From: Desulfurispirillum indicum S5
GTDB lineage: Bacteria; Chrysiogenota; Chrysiogenetes; Chrysiogenales; Chrysiogenaceae
DNA length: 64,000 nucleotides
NCBI RefSeq assembly: GCF_000177635.2
Contig: NC_014836.1
Coordinates: 2,340,001-2,404,000 of the forward strand
Direction: 5' to 3'
Both the position numbers and the translations under genes were made by a program. Under the pieces are notes generated by a model. The model had not been told where the DNA came from. It did not search any database and saw only the letters and a list, made by a program, of their open reading frames with translations. Below, in pieces: positions 49,871-64,000 of the stretch (its first letter is position 1; every line of letters starts with the position of its first letter).

Positions 49871-50967
49871 TACGCCTGGCCTTTCCGGGGATAGACCCGT
49901 ATGGCTTCCTTCGGCAACCGCAAGACAACTTGTTGCCCTTCGCCAAACGCCAGTATCCGTGCCTGGGCCTGGGGAATCTCCACGTGCAGCTGGCTGGCGC
50001 TGCTGCTGTTTCCGGCGTCCACGGTAAGGCGCACCACCGACCCCAGGGCGCACACCTCCCGGACGCTGGCTTTCACCCTGTTCTCAATTGATCCGGCATA
50101 TTCCGGTGGCAACAGTTCAATCTCTGAGGGGCGAATCCCCGCCAGGATCTCCCGGTTATTTACTGGAATGTTGTCAGCGCGCAGCATGTAGCCACTCCAG
50201 TGGATTTTCTCCTCTTCCACAGTGGCATGGAAAAAATTCATCTGCCCCACAAAACCCGCCACAAAAGGTGTTGCCGGGAAACGGTAAATATCCATGGGCC
50301 GCCCCAACTGCTCTATACGCCCTCTATTCATGACCACCACCCGATCGGAGAGTTCCATGGCTTCTTCCTGGTCGTGGGTGACATAGATCATGGTGATTCC
50401 CAAAGCGCGCTGCCACTGGCGTATCTGCTGGCGCAAATGTACTCGTATTCTGGCATCCAAAGCCGAGAGGGGTTCATCCAGCAGGAGGACGCGCGGCCCT
50501 GGCGCCAGGGCGCGCACCAGGGCTACCCGCTGCTGCTGGCCACCTGAGAGCTGGGAAGGGTACTTGGAGGCATGGGCCTGCAGGTCAGCCAGCTCGAGCA
50601 TCTCGGCAACCCGCTGATGGATGGCCTGCCGGCTCCAGCGCCGTGAGCGCAGTCCGAAAGCAATATTCTCCCGCACCGTCATATGGGGAAACAGGGCGTA
50701 ATTCTGGAAAACGATCCCGAACGGTCGCTTCTGGGGTGGCTGGTGATGGATATTCTGCCCTTCCAGGCGGATGGCCCCACTGCAGAGCCCCTCAAAACCG
50801 GTTATCATGCGCAGCAGGGTTGTCTTGCCGCAACCGGAAGGTCCGAGGAGAGTCAGTAGCTCCCCCCGGACCACCTGCAGGTCGATGTTGTCGACGGCGT
50901 TTACCGCGCCATAGGCACGCCTGACGCCATCAAGCTGGAGAAATGGTGGACTGCTTTGTGTCGACAT
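49870..50967 (-). CDS. ABC transporter ATPase (Fbp/Pot or 2-aminoethylphosphonate type)
   Basis: 365 residues from the ATG at 50967. Walker A GPSGCGKTTLLRM, signature LSGGQQQRVALVRAL, Walker B VLLLDEPLSALD, and the switch His in YVTHDQEEAM. The C-terminal TOBE-like domain is about 120 residues. Starts 7 bp after the binding-protein gene. It belongs to the same operon as the permease and binding protein. Confidence 0.9.
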   Translation of the reverse strand: MSTQSSPPFLQLDGVRRAYGAVNAVDNIDLQVVRGELLTLLGPSGCGKTTLLRMITGFEGLCSGAIRLEGQNIHHQPPQKRPFGIVFQNYALFPHMTVRENIAFGLRSRRWSRQAIHQRVAEMLELADLQAHASKYPSQLSGGQQQRVALVRALAPGPRVLLLDEPLSALDARIRVHLRQQIRQWQRALGITMIYVTHDQEEAMELSDRVVVMNRGRIEQLGRPMDIYRFPATPFVAGFVGQMNFFHATVEEEKIHWSGYMLRADNIPVNNREILAGIRPSEIELLPPEYAGSIENRVKASVREVCALGSVVRLTVDAGNSSSASQLHVEIPQAQARILAFGEGQQVVLRLPKEAIRVYPRKGQA

Positions 50968-50974
50968 GCTGTAC

Positions 50975-51964
50975 TTATCTGGCAAAGCGCTTGGTCCATT
51001 CGCGCACCACCGCGTCCTTGGTCTCTCCTACCTTATTGAAATCCATGGAGATGAGAGGAATATCCCCAAGCTGAGGCAGCTTCTCAGAAGTGGCAATGCC
51101 TTCCATGGTGACACCGGCTTTCATGACGGCATAGGACTTCATGGCATTCTCACTGATGGCCCAGTCAAGAAATCGCTTGGCTGCTGCCGGATTGGGGCCA
51201 CCCTTGACCAGGGCGTTTGCTTCCAGTTCATAACCAACGCCCTCTTTCGGGAAGATCAGCTGCACGGGAAAGCCCTGATTGGCCTGAGACTGGATGCTGA
51301 GCACCAGGGAGAGACCGACGACAGCCTCACCAGAACCGGCCAGACGAGCAGGAGCAGAACCGCTGGAGGTGTATTGACGGACATTGCTGTTCAGCTGCTC
51401 CATGTACTCCCAACCTTCCTTTTCGCCGAAAATGCTGAGCCAGGAGTTCACGTGGACGAAACCTGTCCCCGATTCTGCAGGATTGGGCATGACCACAAGT
51501 CCGCGATAGCGCGGGTCGGTCAGATCTTTCCAGGATGTGGGCAGAGGAAGCTTCAGATCATGTAATTCACGGGTGTTGATCGCAACACCACCAATATACA
51601 TGGTCATGCCATACCAGAAATCCTGATCGCTTTTGAAACGTGCCGGAATGCGACGGGCATCGCGGGGGCGATAGGGCTCCAGAATGCCTTCTTTGGCCAG
51701 CGGATCAAGGGCGGTTGCCGCCGTTCCCCAGATAAGGTCGGCCTGGGGCGAACGGGATTCCGCTTTCACCCTGGCCGCCAGCGCACCTGTTGAAATACGC
51801 AGTACCTGAATGTCCAGATCCGGCAGGGCCGCACGGGCTGCTCGCATATACGCTTCAATTTCCTCGTTTTCCAGGGCAGAGTAGACCACAACACGGTTAC
51901 TGGCTTGGGCTGATACTGCCAGAAAAACTCCCAGGACAAGAACCCCAAATAATTGACGCAACAT
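50975..51964 (-). CDS. ABC transporter periplasmic binding protein (iron/2-aminoethylphosphonate type)
   Basis: 329 residues. Signal peptide MLRQLFGVLVLGVFLAVSAQA; start preceded by AAAGGAG. The mature part begins NRVVVYSALENEEI, and IEAYMRAARAALPD and GGVAINTRELHDLKLP are typical of the extracellular family-1 Fbp/AfuA-like binding proteins. LIWGTAATALDPLAKEG and VGLSLVLSIQSQAN suggest ligand loops. Fe(III) ligands such as paired Tyr are not obvious in the C-half, which makes an organic phosphorus ligand possible. Evidence for the substrate is contextual only. Confidence 0.8.
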   Translation of the reverse strand: MLRQLFGVLVLGVFLAVSAQASNRVVVYSALENEEIEAYMRAARAALPDLDIQVLRISTGALAARVKAESRSPQADLIWGTAATALDPLAKEGILEPYRPRDARRIPARFKSDQDFWYGMTMYIGGVAINTRELHDLKLPLPTSWKDLTDPRYRGLVVMPNPAESGTGFVHVNSWLSIFGEKEGWEYMEQLNSNVRQYTSSGSAPARLAGSGEAVVGLSLVLSIQSQANQGFPVQLIFPKEGVGYELEANALVKGGPNPAAAKRFLDWAISENAMKSYAVMKAGVTMEGIATSEKLPQLGDIPLISMDFNKVGETKDAVVREWTKRFAR

Positions 51965-52010
51965 AAGCTCTCCTTTTACTGCTGATATTTATAATTGCAG
52001 TACATGTTTC

Positions 52011-52823
52011 TCAGATAATCGCGTGGCGTACGCGGGCCGAAACCCATTCGCTGGCCAGTACGGTGACGAAGATGGCAATGAAAATCACGGAAACCTGGGA
52101 CCAGGCCAGGGAGTTGACCGAAGCCATGAGCTGCAGGCCGATGCCGCCAGCTCCCACCAGTCCAAGCACGGTGGATTCGCGGATGTTGATATCCCAACGG
52201 TAGACGGAGATACCGGCAAAGGCGGGCATTACCTGGGGCACGATGCCATAGGCCATGACCTGCATCCCATTGGCGCCGGTGGCGGCAATGGCTTCCACCT
52301 GGCTGGTGTCAATCTCTTCGATGGCTTCGTAGAGGAGCTTGCCAATGAAGCCGATGGAGCGCAGGGCGATGGCGATTATGCCTGCCAGCACCCCGGGGCC
52401 GACGATGGTCACCAGCAGCATGGCCCAGATGAGGGAGTTGATGGAGCGCGAGGACACGATGACCATCAGGGCCGCTGTGCGCACCATGGTGTGGGGAGTG
52501 GTGTTGCGGGCCGCCATGAAGGCCGTGGGCACGGCCACCACGATGCCCAGCAGAGTGCCCAGGGTGGCAATATTAATGGTATCCCAGAGGGGCTTCCACA
52601 GCCTTTCCATGTAGGTCCAGCGGGGCGGAATCATGCGACTGAGCAGGTCGGCCCCCTGCTGGGGCGCGTCCAGGGCGAAGAACCAGATGGTCTTGTCGGA
52701 AATGATCTGCCAGCACCAGAGAAAGAGGAAGACCCCGAAGAACCAGCAGGCCCACTGGGTCAGCTGCTGGCGACGATTACGGTGTTTCCAGATTCTGCCA
52801 TCGGCAGTGGTAATTACGGGCAT
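52011..52823 (-). CDS. phnE: Phosphonate-type ABC permease, second copy
   Basis: 270 residues. Family marks are SRSINSLIWAMLLVTIVGPG and LLYEAIEEIDTSQVEAI, and VLGLVGAGGIGLQL near the end. Its ATG overlaps the stop of the preceding phnE (TAATG). Two unequal phnE genes in tandem occur in phosphite/phosphonate transporters; they may form a heterodimer channel. Confidence 0.9.
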   Translation of the reverse strand: MPVITTADGRIWKHRNRRQQLTQWACWFFGVFLFLWCWQIISDKTIWFFALDAPQQGADLLSRMIPPRWTYMERLWKPLWDTINIATLGTLLGIVVAVPTAFMAARNTTPHTMVRTAALMVIVSSRSINSLIWAMLLVTIVGPGVLAGIIAIALRSIGFIGKLLYEAIEEIDTSQVEAIAATGANGMQVMAYGIVPQVMPAFAGISVYRWDINIRESTVLGLVGAGGIGLQLMASVNSLAWSQVSVIFIAIFVTVLASEWVSARVRHAII

Positions 52824-53614
52824 TACTGCAACCTCTTGCGCACGAAGCTGGAAAAGTATTCGGTCATCAGAACGATGCCGATGATAATCAGCAGAATGGC
52901 GGCGGCGGTATCGTACTCGTAGCGGTCAAAAGCCGTGTTCAGGGTAGCACCGATGCCACCGGCACCCACGATGCCGATGACGGCCGCTTCGCGGAAGTTG
53001 ATATCCAGGCGGTAGACCGACAGGCCAATCAGACGCGGCATGACCTGGGGCGCAATACCGTAGCAGACCATCTGCAGCCAGCTGCCGCCGGTGGCGCGAA
53101 TGGCCTCCACCTGGGAACGGTCGATATCCTCGATGTCCTCGGCCATGAGCTTGGCCATGAAGCCGATGGTGGCAAAGGCCAGGGTGATGACACCCGCCAG
53201 GGGGCCGAAGCCGAACATGGCCACGAAGAGGATGGCGATGATGATTTCCTGGAAAGTGCGCGAGATGGAGATAATGCCGCGACAGGCGATGTAGATGGGC
53301 AAGGGAGCCACATTGCGGGCTGCCCCCAGAGCGATGGGAACGGAGAGAGCCACGCCGATCACCGTGGAGGTGAAGGTCATGGTCAGGCTTTCGATCATGC
53401 CGTCCACAATGTCACCCCAGCGACTGCTGAAGTCGGGACGGGCAAAGGAAGCCACAAAGGCCAGTCCGCGTTCCAACCCTTCGTAGACTCGTATCCAGTT
53501 GATATCCACACTGGCAGTTGCCAGCAGCAGGTAGAGGAGAATACCCCCATAGAGCCCATAGCGCTGCCAGGGATTGGCGATAAAAGGCTTTGGTTGCCAG
53601 GTGCGATTGCTCAT
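52823..53614 (-). CDS. phnE: Phosphonate-type ABC permease, first copy
   Basis: 263 residues from the ATG at 53614, preceded by a weak GGGGAA site 12 nt upstream. It carries ISRTFQEIIIAILFV, LMAEDIEDIDRSQVEAI and VIGIVGAGGIGATL. The open frame extends upstream into the M4 element, which is not coding. The M insertion lies between phnC and this gene and may change spacing or polarity. Confidence 0.9.
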   Translation of the reverse strand: MSNRTWQPKPFIANPWQRYGLYGGILLYLLLATASVDINWIRVYEGLERGLAFVASFARPDFSSRWGDIVDGMIESLTMTFTSTVIGVALSVPIALGAARNVAPLPIYIACRGIISISRTFQEIIIAILFVAMFGFGPLAGVITLAFATIGFMAKLMAEDIEDIDRSQVEAIRATGGSWLQMVCYGIAPQVMPRLIGLSVYRLDINFREAAVIGIVGAGGIGATLNTAFDRYEYDTAAAILLIIIGIVLMTEYFSSFVRKRLQ

Positions 53615-53629
53615 CAGTTCATGTTCCCC

Positions 53630-53786
53630 TAACAGGCTGCTGAAAAAACCCCATCTGCGGCGTTGCCCGCTGTCGCTCGTCGCTGCAACGTACAGGGAGT
53701 ACGCTTCACTCCTTGCTTTGCGGGCGCCTTGCACCTGTAGGTTTTTCAATTGCCTGCTTATTCTGAGATATTCCAACAAGCTGCTA
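53630..53786. repeat. M element copy M4, between phnC and phnE
   Basis: 157 bp from TAACAGGCTGCTGAAAA to the end at 53786, with CGTAC-AGGGA-GTACG inside. The last bases CTA at 53784-53786 are the stop codon of phnC on the minus strand. It interrupts the operon. Confidence 0.85.
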
Positions 53787-54614
53787 AAAGGCCAGGCTCT
53801 GCTGGGGCAGGAAGCTGGCCTTGCTGGGAACCGGATCATCCTCTTCGTCATCCAGACACTGGATGGAGGCGTTCCAGTCCTCTTCACCGTAGATGCGGGT
53901 CAGGGCATCGGCGGTCAGCTCCGCCGGAGAGCCGTCAAAGACAATTTCTCCCTGGCGCAGCCCCACGATGCGGGCGGCGAACATCTGGGCCAGGGCCACG
54001 TCGTGAATATTGATGACCGCTGCCAGACCCTTCTCGCTGCACAGTTCACAGATCAGGCGCATGATCTGGCGCGAGGTTTTGGGGTCCAGGCTGGCGGTGG
54101 GCTCGTCCACCAGCAGAATATCGGGATCCTGAATCAGAGCGCGGGCGATGCCTACCCGCTGCCGCTGCCCCCCGGAGAGGGCGTCGGCACGCTTGTCGGC
54201 GAAGTGGTCCAGGCCCACCCGCTCCAGCAGGCCAAAGGCGGCGTCGATATCCGCCTGGGGATAGCGGCGCAGGAAACTGCGCCAGAAACCCACATAGCCA
54301 AGGCGTCCTGAAAGGACATTTTCCATTACACTCAGGCGCTCCACCAGGGCGTACTCCTGGAAGATCATACCCATGCGACGGCGCTGCTGACGCAGAGCTG
54401 CCGAGCCAAGGGCGGTCAGCTCCGCATTCCCCAGGGTTATTCGGCCATCGGTCGGCTCCACCAGTCGGTTCACGCAGCGGATCAGAGTACTTTTGCCCGC
54501 TCCCGACGGCCCGATCAGGGCCATGACCTGCCCACGGGGAACGGCGAGCTTGACCCCTTTCAGGGCCAGATCGCCGGTGGGATAGCGTTTGACGAGACCT
54601 TCAATGTACAGCAT
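53784..54614 (-). CDS. phnC: Phosphonate-type ABC transporter ATPase
   Basis: 276 residues. Start at 54614 lies 5 bp after the phnD stop; Walker [15 protein letters not shown], signature [15 protein letters not shown], Walker [13 protein letters not shown]. The C-terminal end ([14 protein letters not shown]) finishes with the TAG formed by the M4 terminus, so the last residues may not be those of the ancestral gene. Length is slightly above the usual 250-260. Confidence 0.92.
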
Positions 54615-54619
54615 GGCGT

Positions 54620-55588
54620 TTACCGGCAATCGTAGGTGACACCCATGGCCTGATCTATGGTGCGGATCACGGCCCAGTGCTCTTTATAGGTGATGGGCAG
54701 GAACTGGCCCTCGTTGGCAAATTCTTCCTGCAGAGCGGAACCTTCCCAGTCGAAGGTGAAGAAGGCTTCCTTGACCTTGGCCGCCAGATCGGGGTGCAGG
54801 TTGTACACGTGGCCGTACCCAGTGGTGGGGAAGGTCTGGGAGCGATAGATCGTCTTGATGCGGCTCTGATCCACAGCGCCGCGATCCAGCATGCGCCCCA
54901 GAACGGAGTTGGCAATGGCAGCGGCATCGTAGTCGCGGTTAGCTACGCCCAGGATGGAGTTGTCGTGGCGACCGGAAAAGGCCGTCTTGAAGTCCTTATC
55001 GGCCTGCAGGCCAAATTCTGCTTCCAGCAGGGCTGAAGGAGCCTTAAAGCCGGAGTTGGAGGTGGGAGAGGTAAAGGCCAGGGTGCGGCCGCGCAGGTCT
55101 TCAATGCGCTCAATACCACTGCCGGGATAGGTGATAATTTCCATCTCATACCCGTAGGAACCATCCTTCGCCGACATGATGGCAAAGGGCACAAAACCGG
55201 CACAATTGACGGCAATGGGGTTGCCGCCAGTGTTGACACCAGCCACGTGCAGGCGTCCAGCCCGCATGGCTTCATACTGGGCCGCGTTTGACTGAACGGG
55301 GAAGAACTGGACGCGCTTGCCGGTCACCTTCTCCATGTGCTTGATAAAGCCATCCCACACGCGGGCGTACACCGAGGGATCCTCAACGGGGGTGTAGGCG
55401 AAAATCAGGGTGGAGGGATTGACCCACTCGCGGGGATTGTCGGGCAGGTCAGCCACCAGGTCGCCATTGCGGTCACAGAAGCGCTCGCTGAGCTGGCCCC
55501 GTGGGCAGTCCTGGGCCAGGGCACTCAGTGTTGCTAAAACAGAAAACACCAGGAACAGCATGCTGCGGAAAACATATTTCAATTTCAT
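54620..55588 (-). CDS. phnD: PhnD-like phosphonate/phosphite-type binding protein
   Basis: 322 residues. Start at 55588 follows GAGG. Signal peptide ends LSALAQ. A conserved segment with [13 protein letters not shown] follows [11 protein letters not shown]. Family hallmarks are [31 protein letters not shown], and [17 protein letters not shown] with ligand-binding Ser/Thr residues. It is about 70 percent identical by eye to the next gene upstream. Confidence 0.9.
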
Positions 55589-55624
55589 CGGAAACACCTC
55601 ATTCTTTATTCATTTTTATGGCCG

Positions 55625-56602
55625 TCAGCGACACTCGTATTTCACGCCCATGGCCTCGTCAATGGCACGTACCACTGACCAGTGCTCTTTGTAGGTGATG
55701 GGGATAAAGCGTTCCTGCTGGAAGGGAGCAAACTCCTGCTGCATGAGTGTGCCTTCCCAGTTGAAGGTGAGAAAGGCTTCCCTGACCTTGGCGGCCAGGT
55801 CGGGATGCAGGTTGTACACGTGACCGTACCCGGTGGTGGGGAAAGGCTCTGACTCGTAGATGACCCGGATGTCGTCCATGTTGATCACACCGCGGGCCGC
55901 CATGCGCACCATGATCTCGTCGGCGATGGCAGCGGCGTCATAGTCCCGGTTGACCACGCCCAGGATGGAGTTATCGTGCTTGCCCGAATAGGCGGTTTTG
56001 AAATCCTTGTCGGCCACCATGCCGTACTCCTTTTCCAGCAGGGCCGATGGAGCCTTGAAACCGGAGTTGGAGGTGGGGGAAACAAAGGCCATGGTCTTGC
56101 CGCGCAGGTCATCCAGGGTGCCTATGCCACTGTCGCGGTGGGTGATAAAGGCCATGCGATAACCGTAATTTCCGTCCTTGGCGGCCATGATGGTGAAGGG
56201 AACAAAGCCGGAGCAGTTCACAGCCACGGGCACGCCACCCGTGTTGACACCAGCCACGTGCAGGCGTCCGGCCCGCATGGCTTCATACTGAGCCGCATAG
56301 GACTGCACCGGGAAAAACTGGACGCGCTTGCCGGTCACCTGTTCCATGTGCTTGATAAAGCCGTCCCACACGCGGGCATAGACGGAAGGGTCCTCGACAG
56401 GGGTGTAGGAGAAGATCAGGGTGGAGGGGTTGATCCAGTCTTTGGAATCAGCGGGCACATCGGCCACCATATCGCCATTGCGATCACAGAAACGTTCACT
56501 GAGCTGACCACGGAAGCAGTCCTTGGCACTGGCACCACCCACAAGGCTGAAAACAATCAGGAAAAGTGTGACCATGGTGCGGCCTCGCATAAATAGGTTC
56601 AT
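55625..56602 (-). CDS. phnD: PhnD-like phosphonate/phosphite-type binding protein, paralogue
   Basis: 325 residues; first gene of the eight-gene minus-strand run. AGGTG lies 5 nt before the ATG at 56602. The pattern is as for the neighbour: [50 protein letters not shown]. Differences concentrate in the C-terminal half. A recent tandem duplication with possible ligand change is likely. No C-P lyase, phosphonatase or phosphite dehydrogenase is seen in the window. Confidence 0.9.
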   Translation of the reverse strand: MNLFMRGRTMVTLFLIVFSLVGGASAKDCFRGQLSERFCDRNGDMVADVPADSKDWINPSTLIFSYTPVEDPSVYARVWDGFIKHMEQVTGKRVQFFPVQSYAAQYEAMRAGRLHVAGVNTGGVPVAVNCSGFVPFTIMAAKDGNYGYRMAFITHRDSGIGTLDDLRGKTMAFVSPTSNSGFKAPSALLEKEYGMVADKDFKTAYSGKHDNSILGVVNRDYDAAAIADEIMVRMAARGVINMDDIRVIYESEPFPTTGYGHVYNLHPDLAAKVREAFLTFNWEGTLMQQEFAPFQQERFIPITYKEHWSVVRAIDEAMGVKYECR

Positions 56603-56872
56603 AGTTCACCTGCGCAGAAAAAATACGCGCCGAATGCGGGGCCGACACCCGATGAATCCATACCCGCGCAAGGCAGATTGCTGTTGTGCGTAGGTGGACC
56701 CGACAGGGCTTGACCCTTTGTCGGAAACGTTCCGGAATCGGCAACTCCCTGCCGTCCTCAGTGAGCGACTATGCAGAAACCAGCAGCGGGAAGCATTAAG
56801 GGAATGTGCGGAAAACGTAAAAGAGTGTGCCGCCAGGGTGGAGAGGAAAAAAACTTCCGGAAAAAGGATTTA
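56603..56872 (-). promoter_or_regulatory. Leader of the phosphonate operon with hairpins
   Basis: On the minus strand two hairpins are seen: one pairing CCGACA at the one side with TGTCGG (plus coordinates about 56700-56724), and GGCA-GGGAGT-TGCC just before it. I find no clear promoter and no PhoB-like CTGTCA pair. No gene is seen in this stretch. Confidence 0.45.
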
Positions 56873-57089
56873 TTGAAGTTTCGCACCTTGTCGCCTTAAT
56901 TTAAGACATTCTTGTCCTGATGTTTACCACGCGGAAACCGTATTGATTTTTCATGCTTGACTCATCTGGTGTTCCACTTTTCGACTCTGGATATTGTCCT
57001 TTTTGACCGCGCAAAAAGGACTCAAAAACGCGCCCCCCGAACGCCCGTTTTTCCGGATCGCCTGCTCGCCTGTTCTGGAGATCCGGCAG

Positions 57090-57213
57090 CAGGCTGCTCA
57101 AAGATGCCCATCTGCGGCGTTGCCGGGCATCGCTCGTCACTGCGACGTACAGGGAGTACGCCTCCTTTCTCGCTTTGCCCGCGCCTTGCACCTGGGCCTC
57201 TTTGCGTTGCCTG
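57090..57213. repeat. M element copy M5 (inside L5)
   Basis: Core bounded by CAGGCTGCTCAAAGATG and the inverse GCCTCTTTGCGTTGCCTG. Same insertion point as M2 in L4, so the two L copies may descend from one already carrying M, or share a target. Confidence 0.82.
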
Positions 57214-57373
57214 ACCCCTGCATCCCTGCAGTGCTGCCGGACCACTCACTTCCTGTGAGTGTCCCTTCGGGTCTTGCCAGCCAGGCGTCGCACTCACCGG
57301 ACGGGCTCAGGGGGGAGACGGTCTGCATCTGCCTTTCCCCCGTGGGCTGGCCCAGCCAGAACGCGCCGACTGT

Positions 57374-57497
57374 CAGGCTGCTGAAAAGCCCTCATCTGCT
57401 GCGTTGCCGGGCATCGCTCGTCACTGCGACGTACAGGGAGTACGCCTCGCTCCTCGCTTTGCCCGCGCCTTGCACCTGAGAACTTTTCAATTGCCTG
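57374..57497. repeat. M element copy M6 (inside L5, second site)
   Basis: Bounded by CAGGCTGCTGAAAAGCCC and AACTTTTCAATTGCCTG. L1 has the corresponding empty site near 18365-18390. Confidence 0.82.
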
Positions 57498-57888
57498 TAT
57501 AACACGGTAGACCCGCAGGGTTGACGCCACGAGGGCGGCAACCGCAAACCAAAAGCCACGGAGGGCGGTTGTTTGCGGTCCCCAGTTCCAGGCAAGCGGA
57601 CGGCTGAAAAGGACAGCACTGGGGGCCGCTTTTGCGCCACTTTTGGCGAGTCAAAAGTGGCAAAAGAAACTCACAAACAAGCTGAGGGCAATGTCAAGAA
57701 ACGCAGTCTGTACAGAACCATTTCAGCATGGCATCAGGGTCGGCGCAACAGCCTGCCGTTTCGGAGGGAGGGGAGAGAAATTTGATGATTTACTCCTCTT
57801 TTACACTTCCCCGACACCTTTCGGCGCTCCCCTGTTACCCTGCAGGGAAATGTTACTCACTTGTGCGTCACTGAGGAGGCGTCCCTCT

Positions 57889-60018
57889 ATGTCACCAACG
57901 GGAAAAAGGGAAGATCGCGCCCGGCTCAGGCAGATCGCCAGCGGAGCCATTGTCTTTATCATACTGTGCCTGAGCTCCAGTGTCGCCGCCATGGAGCACT
58001 CCCAGGCGGGTTGCCCCTTCATCAGCTTCCACCACGCCCTTGAGAAACCACCCACCATAGCCTTGCAGCGTACCCTGCTGGACGCGCGCTCCCTGCTGGA
58101 CACCACCTTCGGCTGCGACACTGCCCACAGGATTTCGGGAGCCATGGCGGTGGAGATTCACCTGGAGTATGCGCCATCGGATGAGCCGGGCTTCCGGGTG
58201 AGCGGCAGCACCTGGCAGGACATTCGGCGCATCACCATCAGCGCAGGCGAACCGGGGGAAATGAGCAGCGGCATCTACGCCCTGCTGCAGGAAAAGCTGG
58301 GCATCCAGTTTCTCCATCCGCGCCAGACGGTTTTCCCCGCATACCGGCAGTGGCCTCTGCCAGAGCACTTTGACCTCCGGGCTCGCCCACGCTTTGCCGT
58401 GCGGGGCTTTCACCTGCACACCCAGCACCCCACGGAGCTGGAAATGGCACTTCACCAGCCTGGCAGCGAGTCGCTGCAGATGGTGCGGGAATATATCGAC
58501 TGGCTGGCCCGCAACGGCCAGAACCACTTTCAGTTTTACCTGCTGCGCACCGTGGATCGTCACCACTGGCCAGAACACGCTCGCGCCATTGTGGACTACG
58601 CCCACCAGCGGGATATGGGGGTGGGAGTCATGGTTTCCGCCTCCATGCTGCAGCAGCACGCCTTCCAGCTGGTCAAACTCCTGCGGCCCGAACGCTACAG
58701 CACCCAGGCGCGCCGCAACCTGGAATGGCTCATGGCCATACCCTGGGACGCGGTGATCCTGGAGCCCACCACCGGGGAGTACCTGCCCGATATGCGTCGT
58801 CTCTTCCCCGGCGTGCTGGAGGCCATCGAGCGCATGACCATGGACGAATTCCAGACACCGCTGTTTTACGCCACCCACGTCATCCATCCCCGCGACCGCA
58901 TCGGCGGCGGCACCAACGACATTCACTGTGAACACCCGGTGGACCCCCGCTCCGGCATCCTCATTCATACCGTCATGTGTTACGACCTGCAGGAGCCCCT
59001 GCCCGGTGTCTATGGCAACCGCGACTTCCACTGGATGCGCGAACGGGCCCGTTGCGAAGTACAGCGCCGCCAGACCTGGTACTGGCCCGAATCCTCCTAC
59101 TGGGTGGCCTTCGACAATTCCGTGCCCCTGTTGCTACTCCCCTATCTGGACAGTCGCCTGCGGGATATCCTGCTCACCGCTAACATGGGCCTTGACGGCC
59201 ACGTGACCTTCAGTTCCGGCTGGGAGTGGGGTTACTGGCTCTTTGACTGGAGTATCGCCCACTGGAGCTGGCAGTGGTGGCACGAAGGCCAGGAACGCCA
59301 GCCCCTTCCCGCCGGACGCCTGCACCATCTGGCTGCGGACGGGGAGCTGGCCAGGTTGATGGAGCGCTCCCTGGACCTCCAGAATCACTTCCTGAAGGAT
59401 CACGAACTGCTGCGCTATCTGCCCGCCTTCGAACCCTTTGCCGAAGCGCCACCGCCCTTTGACTTCATATTTCAGCCCCGCCCCGAACGGCGGCCCGCCC
59501 ACCTCATGAAGCGCGCCTCGGCCACCGAAGCCCAGGCGGTGCTGGATGGCCCCGTCCGCCAGCTGGAAGCCTTTGCTCACCAGAGCCTGGCCCTGATCGC
59601 GACACACCAGCCCCGCAATGGCCTGGAGCGGGAGCTGTTGGATGGGCTGCATATCACCGCCCTGCGCGCCCTGCACCGCAGTGCCACCCTGCAGGCCACC
59701 ATCGCCCGCCGTGAAAAGCCGCGCCTGTGGCACCAGCCCACCCCTTCAGCACAGCAGCACCTGGAGCAGGCCGAACGCATCCGAAGCGAAGCCCTGTCCA
59801 TCGTGCGCCAGCGCGAAGCCGCCTACCGTTATCCCGTCAGCGACATTGCCAGCAGACGCCAGAGCTTCACCGCCTACGACTTTGGCTACCTCTACCCCGT
59901 CCATGAACTGTATTTCTGGCAGCGCGAAGAGGAGCAGGTTGCCACCGGGCGTTTTGACATGTTCTATCGCACCATCTGGAACTATTGGCGGGTACTGGGA
60001 CTTTCCGGTTTGTGGTGA
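57889..60018 (+). CDS. Secreted glycoside-hydrolase-like protein of unknown substrate
   Basis: 709 residues. The start at 57889 (MSPTGKREDRARLRQ) follows GAGGAGG and leads to a signal peptide ending SSSVAA. Residues 50-150 resemble the N-terminal domain that precedes glucuronidase/hexosaminidase barrels: EMSSGIYALLQEKLGIQFLHP. The centre has barrel-like features, RFAVRGFHLHTQHP, NGQNHFQFYLLR, and EPTTGEYLP with acidic candidates. The rest is helical, with Trp-rich WYWPESSYWVAFDN. I do not recognise a specific family. It has no transport or sugar genes near it. Confidence 0.7.
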   Translation: MSPTGKREDRARLRQIASGAIVFIILCLSSSVAAMEHSQAGCPFISFHHALEKPPTIALQRTLLDARSLLDTTFGCDTAHRISGAMAVEIHLEYAPSDEPGFRVSGSTWQDIRRITISAGEPGEMSSGIYALLQEKLGIQFLHPRQTVFPAYRQWPLPEHFDLRARPRFAVRGFHLHTQHPTELEMALHQPGSESLQMVREYIDWLARNGQNHFQFYLLRTVDRHHWPEHARAIVDYAHQRDMGVGVMVSASMLQQHAFQLVKLLRPERYSTQARRNLEWLMAIPWDAVILEPTTGEYLPDMRRLFPGVLEAIERMTMDEFQTPLFYATHVIHPRDRIGGGTNDIHCEHPVDPRSGILIHTVMCYDLQEPLPGVYGNRDFHWMRERARCEVQRRQTWYWPESSYWVAFDNSVPLLLLPYLDSRLRDILLTANMGLDGHVTFSSGWEWGYWLFDWSIAHWSWQWWHEGQERQPLPAGRLHHLAADGELARLMERSLDLQNHFLKDHELLRYLPAFEPFAEAPPPFDFIFQPRPERRPAHLMKRASATEAQAVLDGPVRQLEAFAHQSLALIATHQPRNGLERELLDGLHITALRALHRSATLQATIARREKPRLWHQPTPSAQQHLEQAERIRSEALSIVRQREAAYRYPVSDIASRRQSFTAYDFGYLYPVHELYFWQREEEQVATGRFDMFYRTIWNYWRVLGLSGLW

Positions 60019-60161
60019 GACATGCGAAGCGCATGCAAGAAGTTTGGCATGATGTCCTTCTGCCTGTATTGTGAGGAGCATATGGCAGAAGGTTGCTCAT
60101 TCCATGTCCCTCATGCGATGGTAGACTGCAATCAATAACGCAGAATACAGGAGCATTCAGC

Positions 60162-60662
60162 ATGCAGAACTTCACCGCCATCGACTTTGAGACCGCCAAT
60201 GAACAACGCACGAGCGCCTGTGCCATCGGGGTTGTGGTAGTGGAGAATCGGCAGATCGTGCGACAGTATGCGCGCCTGATTCGCCCGGAACCCATGCGCT
60301 TTGCGTCCTTCAACACGGCTGTTCACGGCCTGACTGCTGCGGATGTGGCTGGTGCACCGGTATTTGGTGAGCTGTGGCCAGAGATTGCCGCGGATATTGT
60401 TTCTGCTCCATTGTTGGTGGCCCACAACACTTCCTTTGACATGAGCGTCCTGCAGCACTGCCTGCGTTCCAGTGGCATTGCCGCCAATATCCCCGACGCT
60501 GTCTGCTCATGCCGTATGGCGAAAAAGCTACTCCCCCAGCTGGTCAACCACAAACTCAACACGCTTTGTAAGCACTTCGGCATACCATTAAACCACCACG
60601 ACGCCCTCAGCGATGCCCAAGCGGCGGCGCGCATTATTCTGGAGTTATACCAGGAGAGGTAG
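60162..60662 (+). CDS. DnaQ-like 3'-5' exonuclease
   Basis: 166 residues. Start at 60162 follows CAGGAG by 8 nt. The DEDDh-type exonuclease motifs are IDFETANE (Exo I), LVAHNTSFDMSVL (Exo II) and HHDALSDAQAAA (Exo III). Length suggests a stand-alone exonuclease domain such as the epsilon-like proteins, not a full Pol III subunit. Substrate and role are not clear from context. Confidence 0.87.
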   Translation: MQNFTAIDFETANEQRTSACAIGVVVVENRQIVRQYARLIRPEPMRFASFNTAVHGLTAADVAGAPVFGELWPEIAADIVSAPLLVAHNTSFDMSVLQHCLRSSGIAANIPDAVCSCRMAKKLLPQLVNHKLNTLCKHFGIPLNHHDALSDAQAAARIILELYQER

Positions 60663-60776
60663 ACCATGGCGGGAAAAAGCCAGCTATCACGCCCTTCAGC
60701 GCAGGAAAACCTGGTATCTGATGGCCTCTGATGAGTCGGCCTGCAACCTGCGCATCTTTGCCTGAGCCGCATACAG

Positions 60777-60806
60777 GGCTGCCAGATTCGGCATTCGCTG
60801 GCAGCC
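60777..60806. terminator. Hairpin between the exonuclease gene and selO
   Basis: GGCTGCCAG (60777-60785) pairs with CTGGCAGCC (60798-60806), 9 bp, loop 12 nt, no T run afterwards. Confidence 0.5.
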
Positions 60807-60886
60807 TGAACGGGGTAAGGGTATGATGCTCCAAAAAGCTGTTATTTTTCCTCACCACACTCACCCCCCCGAAAGGTCTTCTGCCC

Positions 60887-62329
60887 ATGCAACTCTCACA
60901 AAGCTACGCGCAATTACCGGGGATGTTTTACCAGAGCCTTGCACCGACTCCCGTGACCAGCCCTGAGCTTTTGTTATGGAATGACGAGCTTGCACAGGCC
61001 TTGAATATGGATTTTACCGGGCTTGATGCTTTGCAGAAAGCGCAGTTTTTCAGTGGCAACCGGCTTTTACCGGGAAGTCAGCCGCTGTCCCAGGCCTATA
61101 GTGGTCATCAATTTGGTCACTTCACCCATCTGGGTGATGGTCGCGCTCATCTTCTGGGTGAGTATGAGGATATGCAGGGGCGGCGGTGGGATATTCAGCT
61201 GAAGGGTTCGGGGCGGACCCGCTATTCCCGTAATGGTGATGGGCGGGCCGCGCTTGGGCCTGTGCTCAGGGAGTATATTATCAGCGAAGCCATGGCGGCG
61301 CTTGGGGTACCTACGACGCGCGGTTTGGCAGTGGTGGCATCGGGTGAGCCGGTGTATCGGGAAGAGGTGTTGCCGGGGGCGATTCTGACCCGTGTTGCCA
61401 GGTGCCATATTCGCGTGGGTACGTTTCAGTTTGCCCTGGCCCAGGGAGATATTGAGGGTCTCAGGGCCTTGTTTGACTACAGTGTGCAGCGCCTGGCGCC
61501 CCAGTGTGCCGAGTCCGAGTGCCCTCCACTGGCCTTTTTGCAGTGGGTCCAGGATCAGCAGGCTGCGCTGGTTGCCCGCTGGTTGTTGCTGGGCTTTATC
61601 CATGGGGTGATGAATACGGACAATATGGCCATCAGCGGCGAGACCATCGATTATGGTCCCTGCGCCTTTCTGGATATTTACCAGCCCGATACGGTTTTCA
61701 GCTCCATCGATCGGCAGGGACGCTATCGCTACTCCCATCAGGGCACCATTGCCCACTGGAACCTTACCCGTTTCGCGGAAACGCTATTACCCCTGATTGA
61801 TGCCGATGGCGACAGGGCGGCAGAAATGGCGATGCAGACGCTGGCCGGTTTTCCCGGCAAGCTCCATGAGCAGTGGCTGGGGGGAATGTGCCGCAAACTG
61901 GGCTGGGAGACTCCCGAAAGTGACGACGCCCAGCTGATTGGCCAGTGGCTGCAGCTGTTGGAAAAACATGAACAGGATTTTACCAACAGCTTTTTTGCCC
62001 TGGGGAACGAGGAAGAGCGGGATAGGGAATTTTTTCAAGCGCAGGCGGTGCAGCAGTGGCTGGGCAGGCGAGAGCAGAGGATTGAAAGGGCCGGACTGAA
62101 GCGCGGGGAGAGCGCCCACATTCTGTCCCTGAGCAACCCTGCGGTCATTCCCCGCAACCACCGGGTGGAGCAGGCCTTGAAGCTGGCTGAGGCGGAAGGG
62201 GATATGAGCCTGGTGCATCGGCTGCTTGCCGTGGTGAAGTCACCCTACTCTGTGGCCGATCAGGACCGGGAGTATCAACAGCTGCCCAGCCCGCAGGAAA
62301 GGGTGTATCGGACTTTTTGCGGCACTTAA
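60887..62329 (+). CDS. selO: SelO-family protein AMPylase (YdiU)
   Basis: 480 residues. Pseudokinase fold that transfers AMP to proteins in characterised members. N-terminal QPLSQAYSGHQFGHFTHLGDGRA, IQLKGSGRTRYSRNGDGRAALG, and later MNTDNMAISGETIDYGPCAFLD are strongly conserved, with the Asp of the DFG-like motif in the last. The C-terminal FCGT places a Cys where some SelO proteins have selenocysteine. The stop codon TAA is the first bases of the M7 element. Confidence 0.95.
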   Translation: MQLSQSYAQLPGMFYQSLAPTPVTSPELLLWNDELAQALNMDFTGLDALQKAQFFSGNRLLPGSQPLSQAYSGHQFGHFTHLGDGRAHLLGEYEDMQGRRWDIQLKGSGRTRYSRNGDGRAALGPVLREYIISEAMAALGVPTTRGLAVVASGEPVYREEVLPGAILTRVARCHIRVGTFQFALAQGDIEGLRALFDYSVQRLAPQCAESECPPLAFLQWVQDQQAALVARWLLLGFIHGVMNTDNMAISGETIDYGPCAFLDIYQPDTVFSSIDRQGRYRYSHQGTIAHWNLTRFAETLLPLIDADGDRAAEMAMQTLAGFPGKLHEQWLGGMCRKLGWETPESDDAQLIGQWLQLLEKHEQDFTNSFFALGNEEERDREFFQAQAVQQWLGRREQRIERAGLKRGESAHILSLSNPAVIPRNHRVEQALKLAEAEGDMSLVHRLLAVVKSPYSVADQDREYQQLPSPQERVYRTFCGT

Positions 62330-62440
62330 CAGCTTGCTGAAATACTTCAAAATGCGCAGGCAATTGAAAAATGCTCAGGTGCAAGGCGCTCGCGGAGCGC
62401 GGAATGAAGCGTACTCCCCGTACGTTGCAGCAACGCGCGA
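62327..62440. repeat. M element copy M7 (inverted, truncated)
   Basis: Begins TAACAGCTTGCTGAAATAC at the selO stop codon and runs through CAGGCAATTGAAAAATGC and CGTACTCCCCGTACG. The opposite end is lost. Confidence 0.8.
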
Positions 62441-62559
62441 AGGCTCAAATACGAAGAGATTCTCACACAAAGTCCGCAAAGGCGCAAAGAAAGGCAAAAG
62501 CAGTTCACCGCGAATGAACACGAATAAACGCGAATGAAAAGGCAGGATCTCACGCCCGT

Positions 62560-62675
62560 TCGCTGCGCTCACTCAAGTCGCGAAGACGTAGAGAAAAATA
62601 CAAGGTTAACTGATTTGGCTGCCCATCTTCTCCGCGTTCTCAGCGGCTTTGCGAGAGGAGATTGTCTTTTCTGGA
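62560..62675. repeat. K repeat copy K3
   Basis: Contains GATTTGGCTG and CGGCTTTGCGAGAGGA in the order seen in K2, with small differences between. Confidence 0.5.
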
Positions 62676-62702
62676 AAGAGAATTTTAAAGAAAGTGTCTT
62701 TC

Positions 62703-62788
62703 AATACCTCAAAATACGCAGGCAATTGAAAAATGCTCAGGTGCAAGGCGGGCAACACCGCAGATGAGGGTTTTTCAGCAGCCTGTTG
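62703..62788. repeat. M element copy M8 (internally deleted)
   Basis: 86 bp: outer arm AATACCTCAAAATACGC, CAGGCAATTGAAAAATGCTCAGGTGCAAGG, then directly to CCGCAGATGAGGGTTTTTC and the end GCAGCCTGTTG. The central GTAC hairpin is missing. Confidence 0.8.
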
Positions 62789-63497
62789 ATATTCTGCGGG
62801 AAACCCTGATTTGCCGTGTTCCTGGTATTTTCTTCCGAAAGGCTCTGTGAGCCCCTTGAAGAGAGCGCCACAACCGCTGATGAAAAAATGGCTTGATATT
62901 TCAAAAAACCGTTTTTATATTTACGACTGTACGACCACGGAAGGGGTCCTCTCGACGCAGGGAAGTTTCTTTTCTTTCATGTCCATTCCGGACGGCTTTG
63001 ACAACGATTTCTGTGCTTTCCAACGAGTGGAAATTCATGGCACAGGCGCAATACAAGGAGGTAACACCACAGGCATGCGCGTTTTGTAATTTCTCACTAT
63101 TCCATGGATTGGAATTGCGTGCCGGTGGCACGCCATCACGGAGGATACCATGTCGCAGAATTCCTGTTTTTTTTGGAGCAGTGGCTGCAGGGCCACAGGG
63201 AAAGCTCCGCAAACACGGCTGACGGCTTCTGCTGAGGTTCGGCTGACAGGAAAAGATGATTGCGGGATATCCTCCATGGCGTGGCAGATCTCCCCCTCTC
63301 TTTTCTCCTGAACTCCGTTTCTCCATAGGCAGCCCGTTGAAATTATCCGATGACCGCTGTGCACGCACATGTCCCGGCGCAAGGCGTCTGCAAGGCCAGG
63401 AGCTGACAGCTCCCTGCGCTCTGGGTTGCCGCGCCGCGATTGCCACGGCAACCGGATTTTTTCGCAAGGTGTCAGCGCAGCTATCATGGAGGATTTC
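62789..63497 (+). other. Long leader region of the flagellin gene
   Basis: About 710 bp without a convincing gene. It contains the hairpin GCGTGCC-GGT-GGCACGC (63117-63133) and, at 63137-63152, CACGGAGGATACCATGTC, which resembles the flagellin ribosome site GGAGGATTTCATGTC at 63488. A short frame of 53 codons follows that ATG (63150-63311) and is doubtful. No firm sigma-28 or sigma-54 promoter was found. Confidence 0.45.
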
Positions 63498-64000
63498 ATG
63501 TCCAGCTACATCAACACCAATATTCCATCGCTGAATTCGCAGAACCATCTGCGTTTTCACTCCCAGCAGCTCTCTTCGACCATTGAAAAACTGGCTTCGG
63601 GAATGCGCATCAATCGAGGCTCCGATGACGCTTCAGGCCTGGCCATTTCCGAGAAGATGCGCGGCCAGATCCGGGGCGTGGATCGCGCCATGGCCAATGC
63701 CCAGGACGGCATGTCCCTGGTTCAGACGGCTGATGGCGCGCTCAATGAGACCGCGGGCATTCTGCAGCGCATGCGCGAGCTGGCGGTGCAGGCGGCCAAT
63801 GACACCTACACGCCCAGTGACCGCTTGCATGTGCAGCGGGAGATCGACCAGCTGCGCCAGGAGATCGACCGGGTGGCCAGTTCCACTGAGTTCAATACGA
63901 AAAAGCTCCTCAGTGGTGACGCGGCGGCCCGCTGGTCGGTCTCTGACCCCGGCAGCCTGGAAGCTATCATCCGCGACCGGGTGCAGTCGGGCACCTACCA
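63498..64000 (+). CDS. fliC: Flagellin, C-terminus outside window
   Basis: Filament subunit. The ATG at 63498 follows GGAGG by 6 nt. The visible 167 residues are the conserved D0/D1 N-terminal region: MSSYINTNIPSLNSQNHLR, EKLASGMRINRGSDDASGLAISE, MRGQIRGVDRAMANAQDGMS, and AILQ-type RMRELAVQAANDT. The remainder runs past the window. It is the only motility gene here. Confidence 0.95.
   Translation, partial: MSSYINTNIPSLNSQNHLRFHSQQLSSTIEKLASGMRINRGSDDASGLAISEKMRGQIRGVDRAMANAQDGMSLVQTADGALNETAGILQRMRELAVQAANDTYTPSDRLHVQREIDQLRQEIDRVASSTEFNTKKLLSGDAAARWSVSDPGSLEAIIRDRVQSGTY

Follow-up and report, generated by a model that had tools for sequence, protein, structure and literature searches.

The closest described systems are the glycoside hydrolases of families GH20, GH67, GH84, GH89, GH115 and GH138 and the DUF4838 proteins. 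In GH20 enzymes the Glu of the GGDE motif is the proton donor and the Asp preceding it orients the acetamide. A catalytic pair at strands 4 and 7 of the barrel is a common arrangement, and enzymes of GH20, GH67 and GH115 commonly trim external glycans. The DUF4838 proteins are named GH163 in passages of a published source (PMC9870897).

Here we describe a gene of Desulfurispirillum indicum S5, P0001, from a window of 64,000 nt (the whole stretch of DNA that was analysed, genome positions 2340001-2404000; positions below are those of the window). We consider its product, with a probability of roughly 0.6, to be an exported glycoside hydrolase of an unnamed family in the GH20/GH67/GH84/GH89/GH115/GH138/DUF4838-GH163 group, most likely trimming terminal single sugars off an envelope glycan of the cell itself. 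The family, mostly exported and probably made up of active glycosidases, occurs inside and outside one phylum and was unmatched in the copies of Pfam and NCBIfam that we searched.

The gene and its product

The reading frame of P0001 starts with ATG at 57889 and ends with TGA at 60016-60018. Upstream of this ATG the frame stays open as far as TTG 57643, but despite the longer open frame we take the ATG as the start because GAGGAGG sits 9 nt upstream. The gene is real and not a chance frame, as homologues align over almost its entire length.

57889-60018, + strand: gene P0001, 709 aa, stop codon included (open frame, homologues)
57873-57879, + strand: ribosome-binding site GAGGAGG, 9 nt 5′ of the ATG (sequence)
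57889-57990, + strand: signal peptide region, residues 1-34 (by eye; helix 6-39 in the model)

The N-terminus, IASGAIVFIILCLSSSVAA (within residues 1-34), looks by eye like a signal peptide, in agreement with an earlier note on this DNA that had described a secreted protein. By eye, the other sequences of the family alignment also have signal-peptide- or lipobox-like N-termini, except L013 and L014. The D. indicum S5 genome consists of one contig of 2,928,377 bp, in which the gene is single-copy (search with E up to 1). Searches of the same genome for GH20 and NAGLU (E up to 1e-10) and for DUF4838 and GH67 (1e-15) found nothing.

Distribution of the family

P0001 had no match in Pfam and NCBIfam at E up to 10, and a single-sequence search of PDB gave no match either. 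Its homologues share 37-41 % identity (families f2 and f5) or 28-29 % identity (f9) with it in near full-length alignments. The first search among relatives recovered the gene in 12 of 59 genomes, and a search with a 12-row profile in 12 of the 50 genomes of the phylum, each carrier having one family member. In a wider sample of 384 genomes, 30 gave matches: the 12 of the phylum, nine outside it with clear relatives (best E at most 1.5e-68), and nine more in which the family profile matched the N-domain only (best E between 1e-6 and 5e-3). DUF4838 proteins are encoded in all nine genomes of the last group, and for eight of these genomes the profile matched within the open frame of the DUF4838 protein itself. 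One genome outside the phylum, G316, has three diverged copies (loci L093, L097 and L098), one beside a gene of the L,D-transpeptidase type and one beside a gene of the metallophosphoesterase type.

We built an alignment of 21 sequences, omitting L003 (near L002), L096 (near L095) and the partial match that G176 and G312 each have as their second. In the resulting tree, which came with warnings on long branches and composition, a fully supported branch separates the phylum members from all other sequences. The D. indicum sequence stands on this common branch beside the other phylum members, with its place among them unresolved. We considered a horizontal gain in D. indicum, as the family gene is absent from the other two genomes of its own family (f1), but the placement in the tree is equally compatible with loss. 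A plasmid search for relatives of P0001 found no match, and of 28 pattern matches in viral contigs none was a relative; in a viral fold library one row fell under 1e-3, a partial match to the barrel. We found no description of the family in the literature titles and abstract openings listed on GH20/67/84/115, DUF4838/GH163, GH138/GH115, Deferribacter or GH20 hypothetical proteins. By the Pfam and NCBIfam copies searched the family probably counts as unnamed, and it may have a recent GH number in CAZy.

Predicted structure

We modelled P0001 with AlphaFold twice, using 12 sequences (mean pLDDT 73.6, pTM 0.80) and 21 sequences (mean pLDDT 86.4, pTM 0.89). In the model a small alpha/beta domain, which takes up residues 44-148 in the version from 21 sequences, is followed by a complete barrel of eight strands and a tail of helices:

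58015-58365, + strand: N-terminal alpha/beta domain, residues ~43-159, of GH67N/NAGLU_N/DUF4838-N/GH20b type (hhalign, GH67 PDB profile match)
58387-59241, + strand: eight-stranded barrel, residues ~167-451 (AlphaFold, Foldseek, VIA-align, hhalign against GH20)
59242-60015, + strand: C-terminal domain, mostly helical, residues ~452-709 (model, alignment)

Strands 1 to 8 of the modelled barrel span residues 171-176, 213-217, 244-250, 288-292, 325-330, 356-361, 396-401 and 437-442. In the C-terminal domain E582, R593, Y663, Y667 and R679 are invariant in the 21-row alignment.

Nearly all of the best 50 Foldseek matches were structures of GH20, GH138, GH115, GH67, GH89 and GH84, with E from 4e-13 to 3e-8 for the first model and from 1e-12 to 3e-9 for the second. 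GH20 stood at the top with the first model; with the second, GH138, GH20 and GH115 came ahead of GH89, GH67 and GH84. VIA-align matches reached Z 19.4 at 8-14 % identity: the GH20 enzyme GcnA (2epk) gave Z 19.4 over 482 residues (rmsd 5.6), tied with GH115 (4c91; Z 18.6, 506 residues, rmsd 4.3), and GH67 (1k9e) gave Z 18.1 over 467 residues (rmsd 4.4). Whole-length TM-scores against known structures were just 0.34-0.53, so the placement of the domains differs from that in the known structures. The glycosidase fold that had been anticipated from the sequence is thus recovered in the prediction, which has the layout of GH20, GH67, GH84, GH89, GH115 and GH138 enzymes.

Profile kinship of the domains

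We compared the family by hhalign with GH20, NAGLU, DUF4838 and GH67 proteins gathered from other genomes. The sets comprised 12 of 20 GH20 loci, 14 of 15 DUF4838, seven of eight GH67 and the single NAGLU locus; the loci left out were partial or weak matches or had a frame on the opposite strand picked. As these are one-against-one comparisons, the reversed controls weigh more than the absolute percentages. The whole family scored 97.8 % against DUF4838, 95.4 % against GH20, 88.9 % against NAGLU (one protein) and 43.9 % against GH67, with reversed targets at 0.1-0.6 % (0.1 % for both GH20 and DUF4838) and a control alignment of the PHP-like/GT4 protein described below at 0.2 %.

When the domains were taken separately, the N-domain scored 98.0 % against DUF4838, 86.1 % against NAGLU, 81.1 % against GH67 and 20.6 % against GH20 (reversed controls 0.2 % or less). 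The barrel scored 87.5 % against GH20 (reversed 0.1 %), in an alignment covering only strands 1-4 and the beginning of strand 5, and stayed at noise level against GH67, NAGLU and DUF4838 (0.2-1.9 %); for NAGLU the reversed control (1.0 %) even exceeded the real score (0.2 %). The helical tail matched none of the four sets (0.1-0.4 %). These sequence comparisons indicate that the N-domain is akin to DUF4838, NAGLU and GH67 and the barrel to GH20, a homology that goes beyond fold.

Searches of PDB and Pfam gave fainter traces. The best PDB match of the 21-row profile covered only the N-terminus of a GH67 alpha-glucuronidase (E 0.0048), nearly tied with a coiled-coil match to the helical tail (E 0.0051). 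Matches to Inclusion membrane protein A (best E about 0.005, on a par with the GH67 match) concerned the tail only and were set down to coiled-coil likeness, and both a GNAT match (2q0y, E 0.6) and a PHP match from Pfam in one member (E 0.19) were taken as chance. NAGLU_N was matched by two of 12 members (best E 3.1e-4) and Glyco_hydro_67N by three of 21 (best E 0.014). No member of the 21 matched any glycosidase barrel model at E up to 1, apart from one with DUF4838 (PF16126; E 0.0075, location within the protein not given); P0001 itself had no match to that model.

The earlier note had read a glucuronidase-like N-terminal domain and an unknown barrel in this protein, and both descriptions hold: the first through the GH67, NAGLU_N and Glyco_hydro_67N matches, the second through the nearly complete silence of the barrel models. 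The comparison of families it proposed was run with profiles (GH20, GH67, NAGLU and DUF4838) and with folds (also GH84, GH115 and GH138), and put the N-domain nearest to DUF4838 while the barrel matched GH20.

Candidate active-site residues

In the barrel, H177, H180, N212, Q256, E297, H330, Y375, D409, R423, D426 and E446 are conserved in all 21 sequences. Three codons concern us most:

58777-58779, + strand: E297, after strand 4, candidate general acid or acid/base (21/21 sequences, hhalign)
59089-59091, + strand: E401, final residue of strand 7, possible nucleophile or base (19/21)
59224-59226, + strand: E446, after strand 8, invariant (21/21)

The GGDE motif of GH20 has its catalytic Glu opposite E297 in the hhalign alignment, and position 296, the site of the GH20 Asp, is Gly, Ser or Thr in every sequence. 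Acidic residues, looked for as a pair in the barrel pocket, do appear at the C-terminal ends of the modelled strands: E297, E446 and D409 (after strand 7) in 21/21 and E401 in 19/21. Judged from their strand positions in the model, E297, D409, E401 and E446 may line one pocket.

The two exceptions at position 401 are L013 (G048) and L014 (G029), the two f9 rows. Both have Thr there and Arg at position 360 and are without a signal peptide, while E297 and E446 are kept. Export and the strand 4/strand 7 pair are therefore features of most members, not of all. Judging by sequence, these two proteins are possibly cytoplasmic and their chemistry may be changed or lost.

Surroundings in D. indicum

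In the part of the window whose open reading frames were listed (14 kb, 50000-64000), Pfam named an exonuclease, SelO and two binding proteins of the phosphonate type; we recognised additional ABC transporter genes by eye. The remark that sugar transport and metabolism are missing nearby is accurate for these 14 kb, by Pfam and by eye. The genes for phosphonate-type periplasmic binding proteins lie in tandem on the minus strand (54620-55597 and 55625-56602), their DNA stretches being 74-80 % identical, and are a duplication; by eye, two putative permease genes and an ATPase gene adjoin them.

The gene was also said to lie between repeats, and it does:

53633-53756, 57090-57213 and 57374-57497: copies of a ~124-nt dispersed repeat, upstream of the gene
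62326-62440: related inverted copy, downstream of the gene

The repeat resembles REP- or MITE-type elements and is an ordinary one, spread genome-wide: its 25-nt core has 48 copies in the genome (up to 2 mismatches) vs none for the reversed pattern. A mobile element around P0001, marked by flanking repeats, is unsupported given this dispersal.

Proposed function and alternatives

From sequence and model, P0001 is likely an active glycosidase. In the mechanism that we propose, E297 would be the proton donor and E401 the nucleophile or base. As the Asp of GH20 is missing, the acetamide-assisted mechanism of GH20 and GH84 is probably unused, and therefore the cleaved sugar need not be an N-acetylhexosamine. 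More weakly, the action could be of the exo type, by analogy with most relatives, and the target could be an envelope glycan or glycolipid of the organism's own making.

D. indicum respires nitrate, arsenate and selenate. Passages of PMC3368425 record pyruvate, lactate and acetate as its carbon sources. Growth on sugars is not on record there, and in such a respirer the family points to a surface glycan of the bacterium's own that would merit a search. The envelope target is plausible and a reasonable guess, because the protein is exported, the recorded carbon sources are simple acids, and in other genomes the gene neighbours include a PHP-like/GT4 fusion gene (below) and a diacylglycerol kinase gene. 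The latter, of the prokaryotic type, lies 3′ on the same strand in three of 12 loci (L015, L017 and L019; by clustering, with Pfam on one). In two of them it is directly next, and in L017 a Band_7 gene stands between.

An enzyme of the same class could instead be a scavenger that trims outside glycans or glycoconjugates, such as dead biomass or extracellular polymers. The protein is exported and many relatives outside the phylum are lipoprotein-like by eye, a position in which they would meet substrates from outside, and L090 has a sulfatase-family gene two genes away. Against this, no gene of sugar uptake or catabolism was found in the 14 kb here or among the 20 neighbour proteins scanned (a subset), the recorded carbon sources are those acids, and each of the 12 phylum genomes has a single member. 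We regard scavenging as rather unlikely.

A sharper form of the preferred reading, the trimming of an envelope glycan, and one that does not exclude it, holds that the PHP-like/GT4 fusion makes the substrate, possibly a glycosylated aminolipid. The fusion protein has ~800 aa (e.g. L059:11925-14381, G000:C1:2416120-2418237; loci L059-L069), and we found no paper on it in the literature search. Its GT4 part is clear; the PHP part is read from a DLHLHS-type motif, recognised by eye, and from sub-threshold Pfam matches in L021 (E 5e-4) and L059 (PHP_C, 2e-4), with no such match in L023 or L064. In four of the 12 phylum carriers (G012, G041, G029 and G048, which belong to two families other than that of D. 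indicum) the P0001 homologue adjoins the fusion gene and is divergent from it. Within the phylum the fusion was found in 21 of 50 genomes (E up to 1e-30): 12 have both genes, nine the fusion alone and 29 neither. All 12 carriers of the family thus have the fusion, with a nominal Fisher p of 2.4e-6 uncorrected for kinship, which inflates the tally, as 12 of the 21 fusion carriers are one family, f2. D. indicum has a diverged fusion homologue (31 % identity) ~16 kb downstream of P0001, not adjacent to it.

The neighbours of the fusion hint at what it might make. By clustering, a radical SAM-type gene lies near it in 8 of the 11 loci read, and a pair of acyltransferases, GNAT (PF13444) and PlsC-type (PF01553), lies beside it in 7 of the 11, two of the 11 loci read being short; Pfam names were verified in L064 (radical SAM-type gene and pair) and L060 (pair). 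This 'OlsB-like' pair recalls ornithine-lipid synthesis and by that analogy suggests a glycolipid, and the fusion loci possibly encode an uncharacterised glyco-aminolipid pathway. Several observations stand against this substrate. The fusion was found in none of the nine outside-phylum genomes with strong family matches vs 3 of 45 others sampled (one partial), which rules it out as an obligate partner and makes it a local one at most. Nine of the 21 fusion carriers are without the gene, two family members are apparently cytoplasmic, and the D. indicum fusion has no acyltransferase pair next to it. A fusion-derived substrate is in our view unlikely.

A glycosidase fold may also host other chemistry, either a metal-dependent hydrolase acting through H175, H177, H330 and H360 (strands 1, 5 and 6) or a transglycosylase or lyase. 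The metal site of amidohydrolases consists of HxH on strand 1, His on strands 5 and 6, and an Asp, and the histidines of the family recall this pattern by analogy. All 21 sequences have H177, H180 and H330, 20 have H175 and 19 have H360, and all four histidines of the putative site are present in P0001 and in 18 of the 21 rows. However, H175 is replaced by Gln in L094 and H360 by Arg in L013 and L014, and profile comparison aligns the barrel with GH20 and places the GH20 catalytic Glu at E297. None of the best 50 Foldseek or VIA-align rows had an amidohydrolase-type title, a result that does not exclude this kind of enzyme. We consider such chemistry quite unlikely. A non-catalytic relative that only binds glycans, as the loss of E401, H360 and the signal peptide in L013 and L014 might suggest, is very unlikely, as E297, D409, E446 and many polar barrel residues are invariant among members down to 23 % identity to P0001, as in active enzymes.

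We return to the exported glycosidase acting on the cell's own envelope as the preferred reading. The family supplies candidate catalytic residues to examine. A bolder version would make it a new GH family whose GH20-type barrel has a histidine-rich site and works through Glu residues of strands 4 and 7. The family would edit a glycolipid or surface glycan assembled with the help of the fusion in D. indicum and the co-carriers of its phylum, hence an unrecognised pathway of envelope glycan remodelling; taken as a whole, this is speculative and doubtful.

Comparison with known glycoside hydrolase families

We assign the P0001 family to none of the established GH families, since it fails the Pfam tests and has only half of the GH20 pair. 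GH20 (PF00728; GcnA 2epk, GH20C 5a6k) has the three-part layout, the profile kinship of the barrel and the position of the catalytic Glu in common with it, and gave the top VIA-align Z (19.4, tied with GH115) at ~10 % identity to P0001. However, of the catalytic Asp-Glu pair after strand 4 the family keeps the Glu without the Asp, and PF00728 was matched by none of the 21 members at E up to 1 and by P0001 not even at E up to 10.

The other families resemble P0001 in part. DUF4838 (PF16126) shares the N-terminal domain, whereas its barrel does not match (1.9 %). GH67 (PF07488, PF03648; 1k9d, 1k9e) is alike in N-domain and fold and unlike in barrel sequence (hhalign 0.5 %), and PF07488 had no match in the 21 members. 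GH89 NAGLU (PF05089, PF12971) has a similar N-domain (two NAGLU_N matches), but the barrel scored 0.2 % against the single NAGLU protein and no member of the 21 matched PF05089. The two-Glu site of GH89 (E483 and E601, in the title of 4a4a) was considered as an analogue of E297/E401. GH115 (4c91; fold match over residues 40-687, Z 18.6) and GH138 (6hzf, 6hzg; top Foldseek row, Z 16.4 with the first model) are likened by fold only, each at ~10 % identity; P0001 has no Pfam match to either of them or to GH84, which also matched in fold. With a barrel of GH20 kinship joined to a first domain of DUF4838/GH67 kinship, P0001 and its relatives help to view these families as one group.
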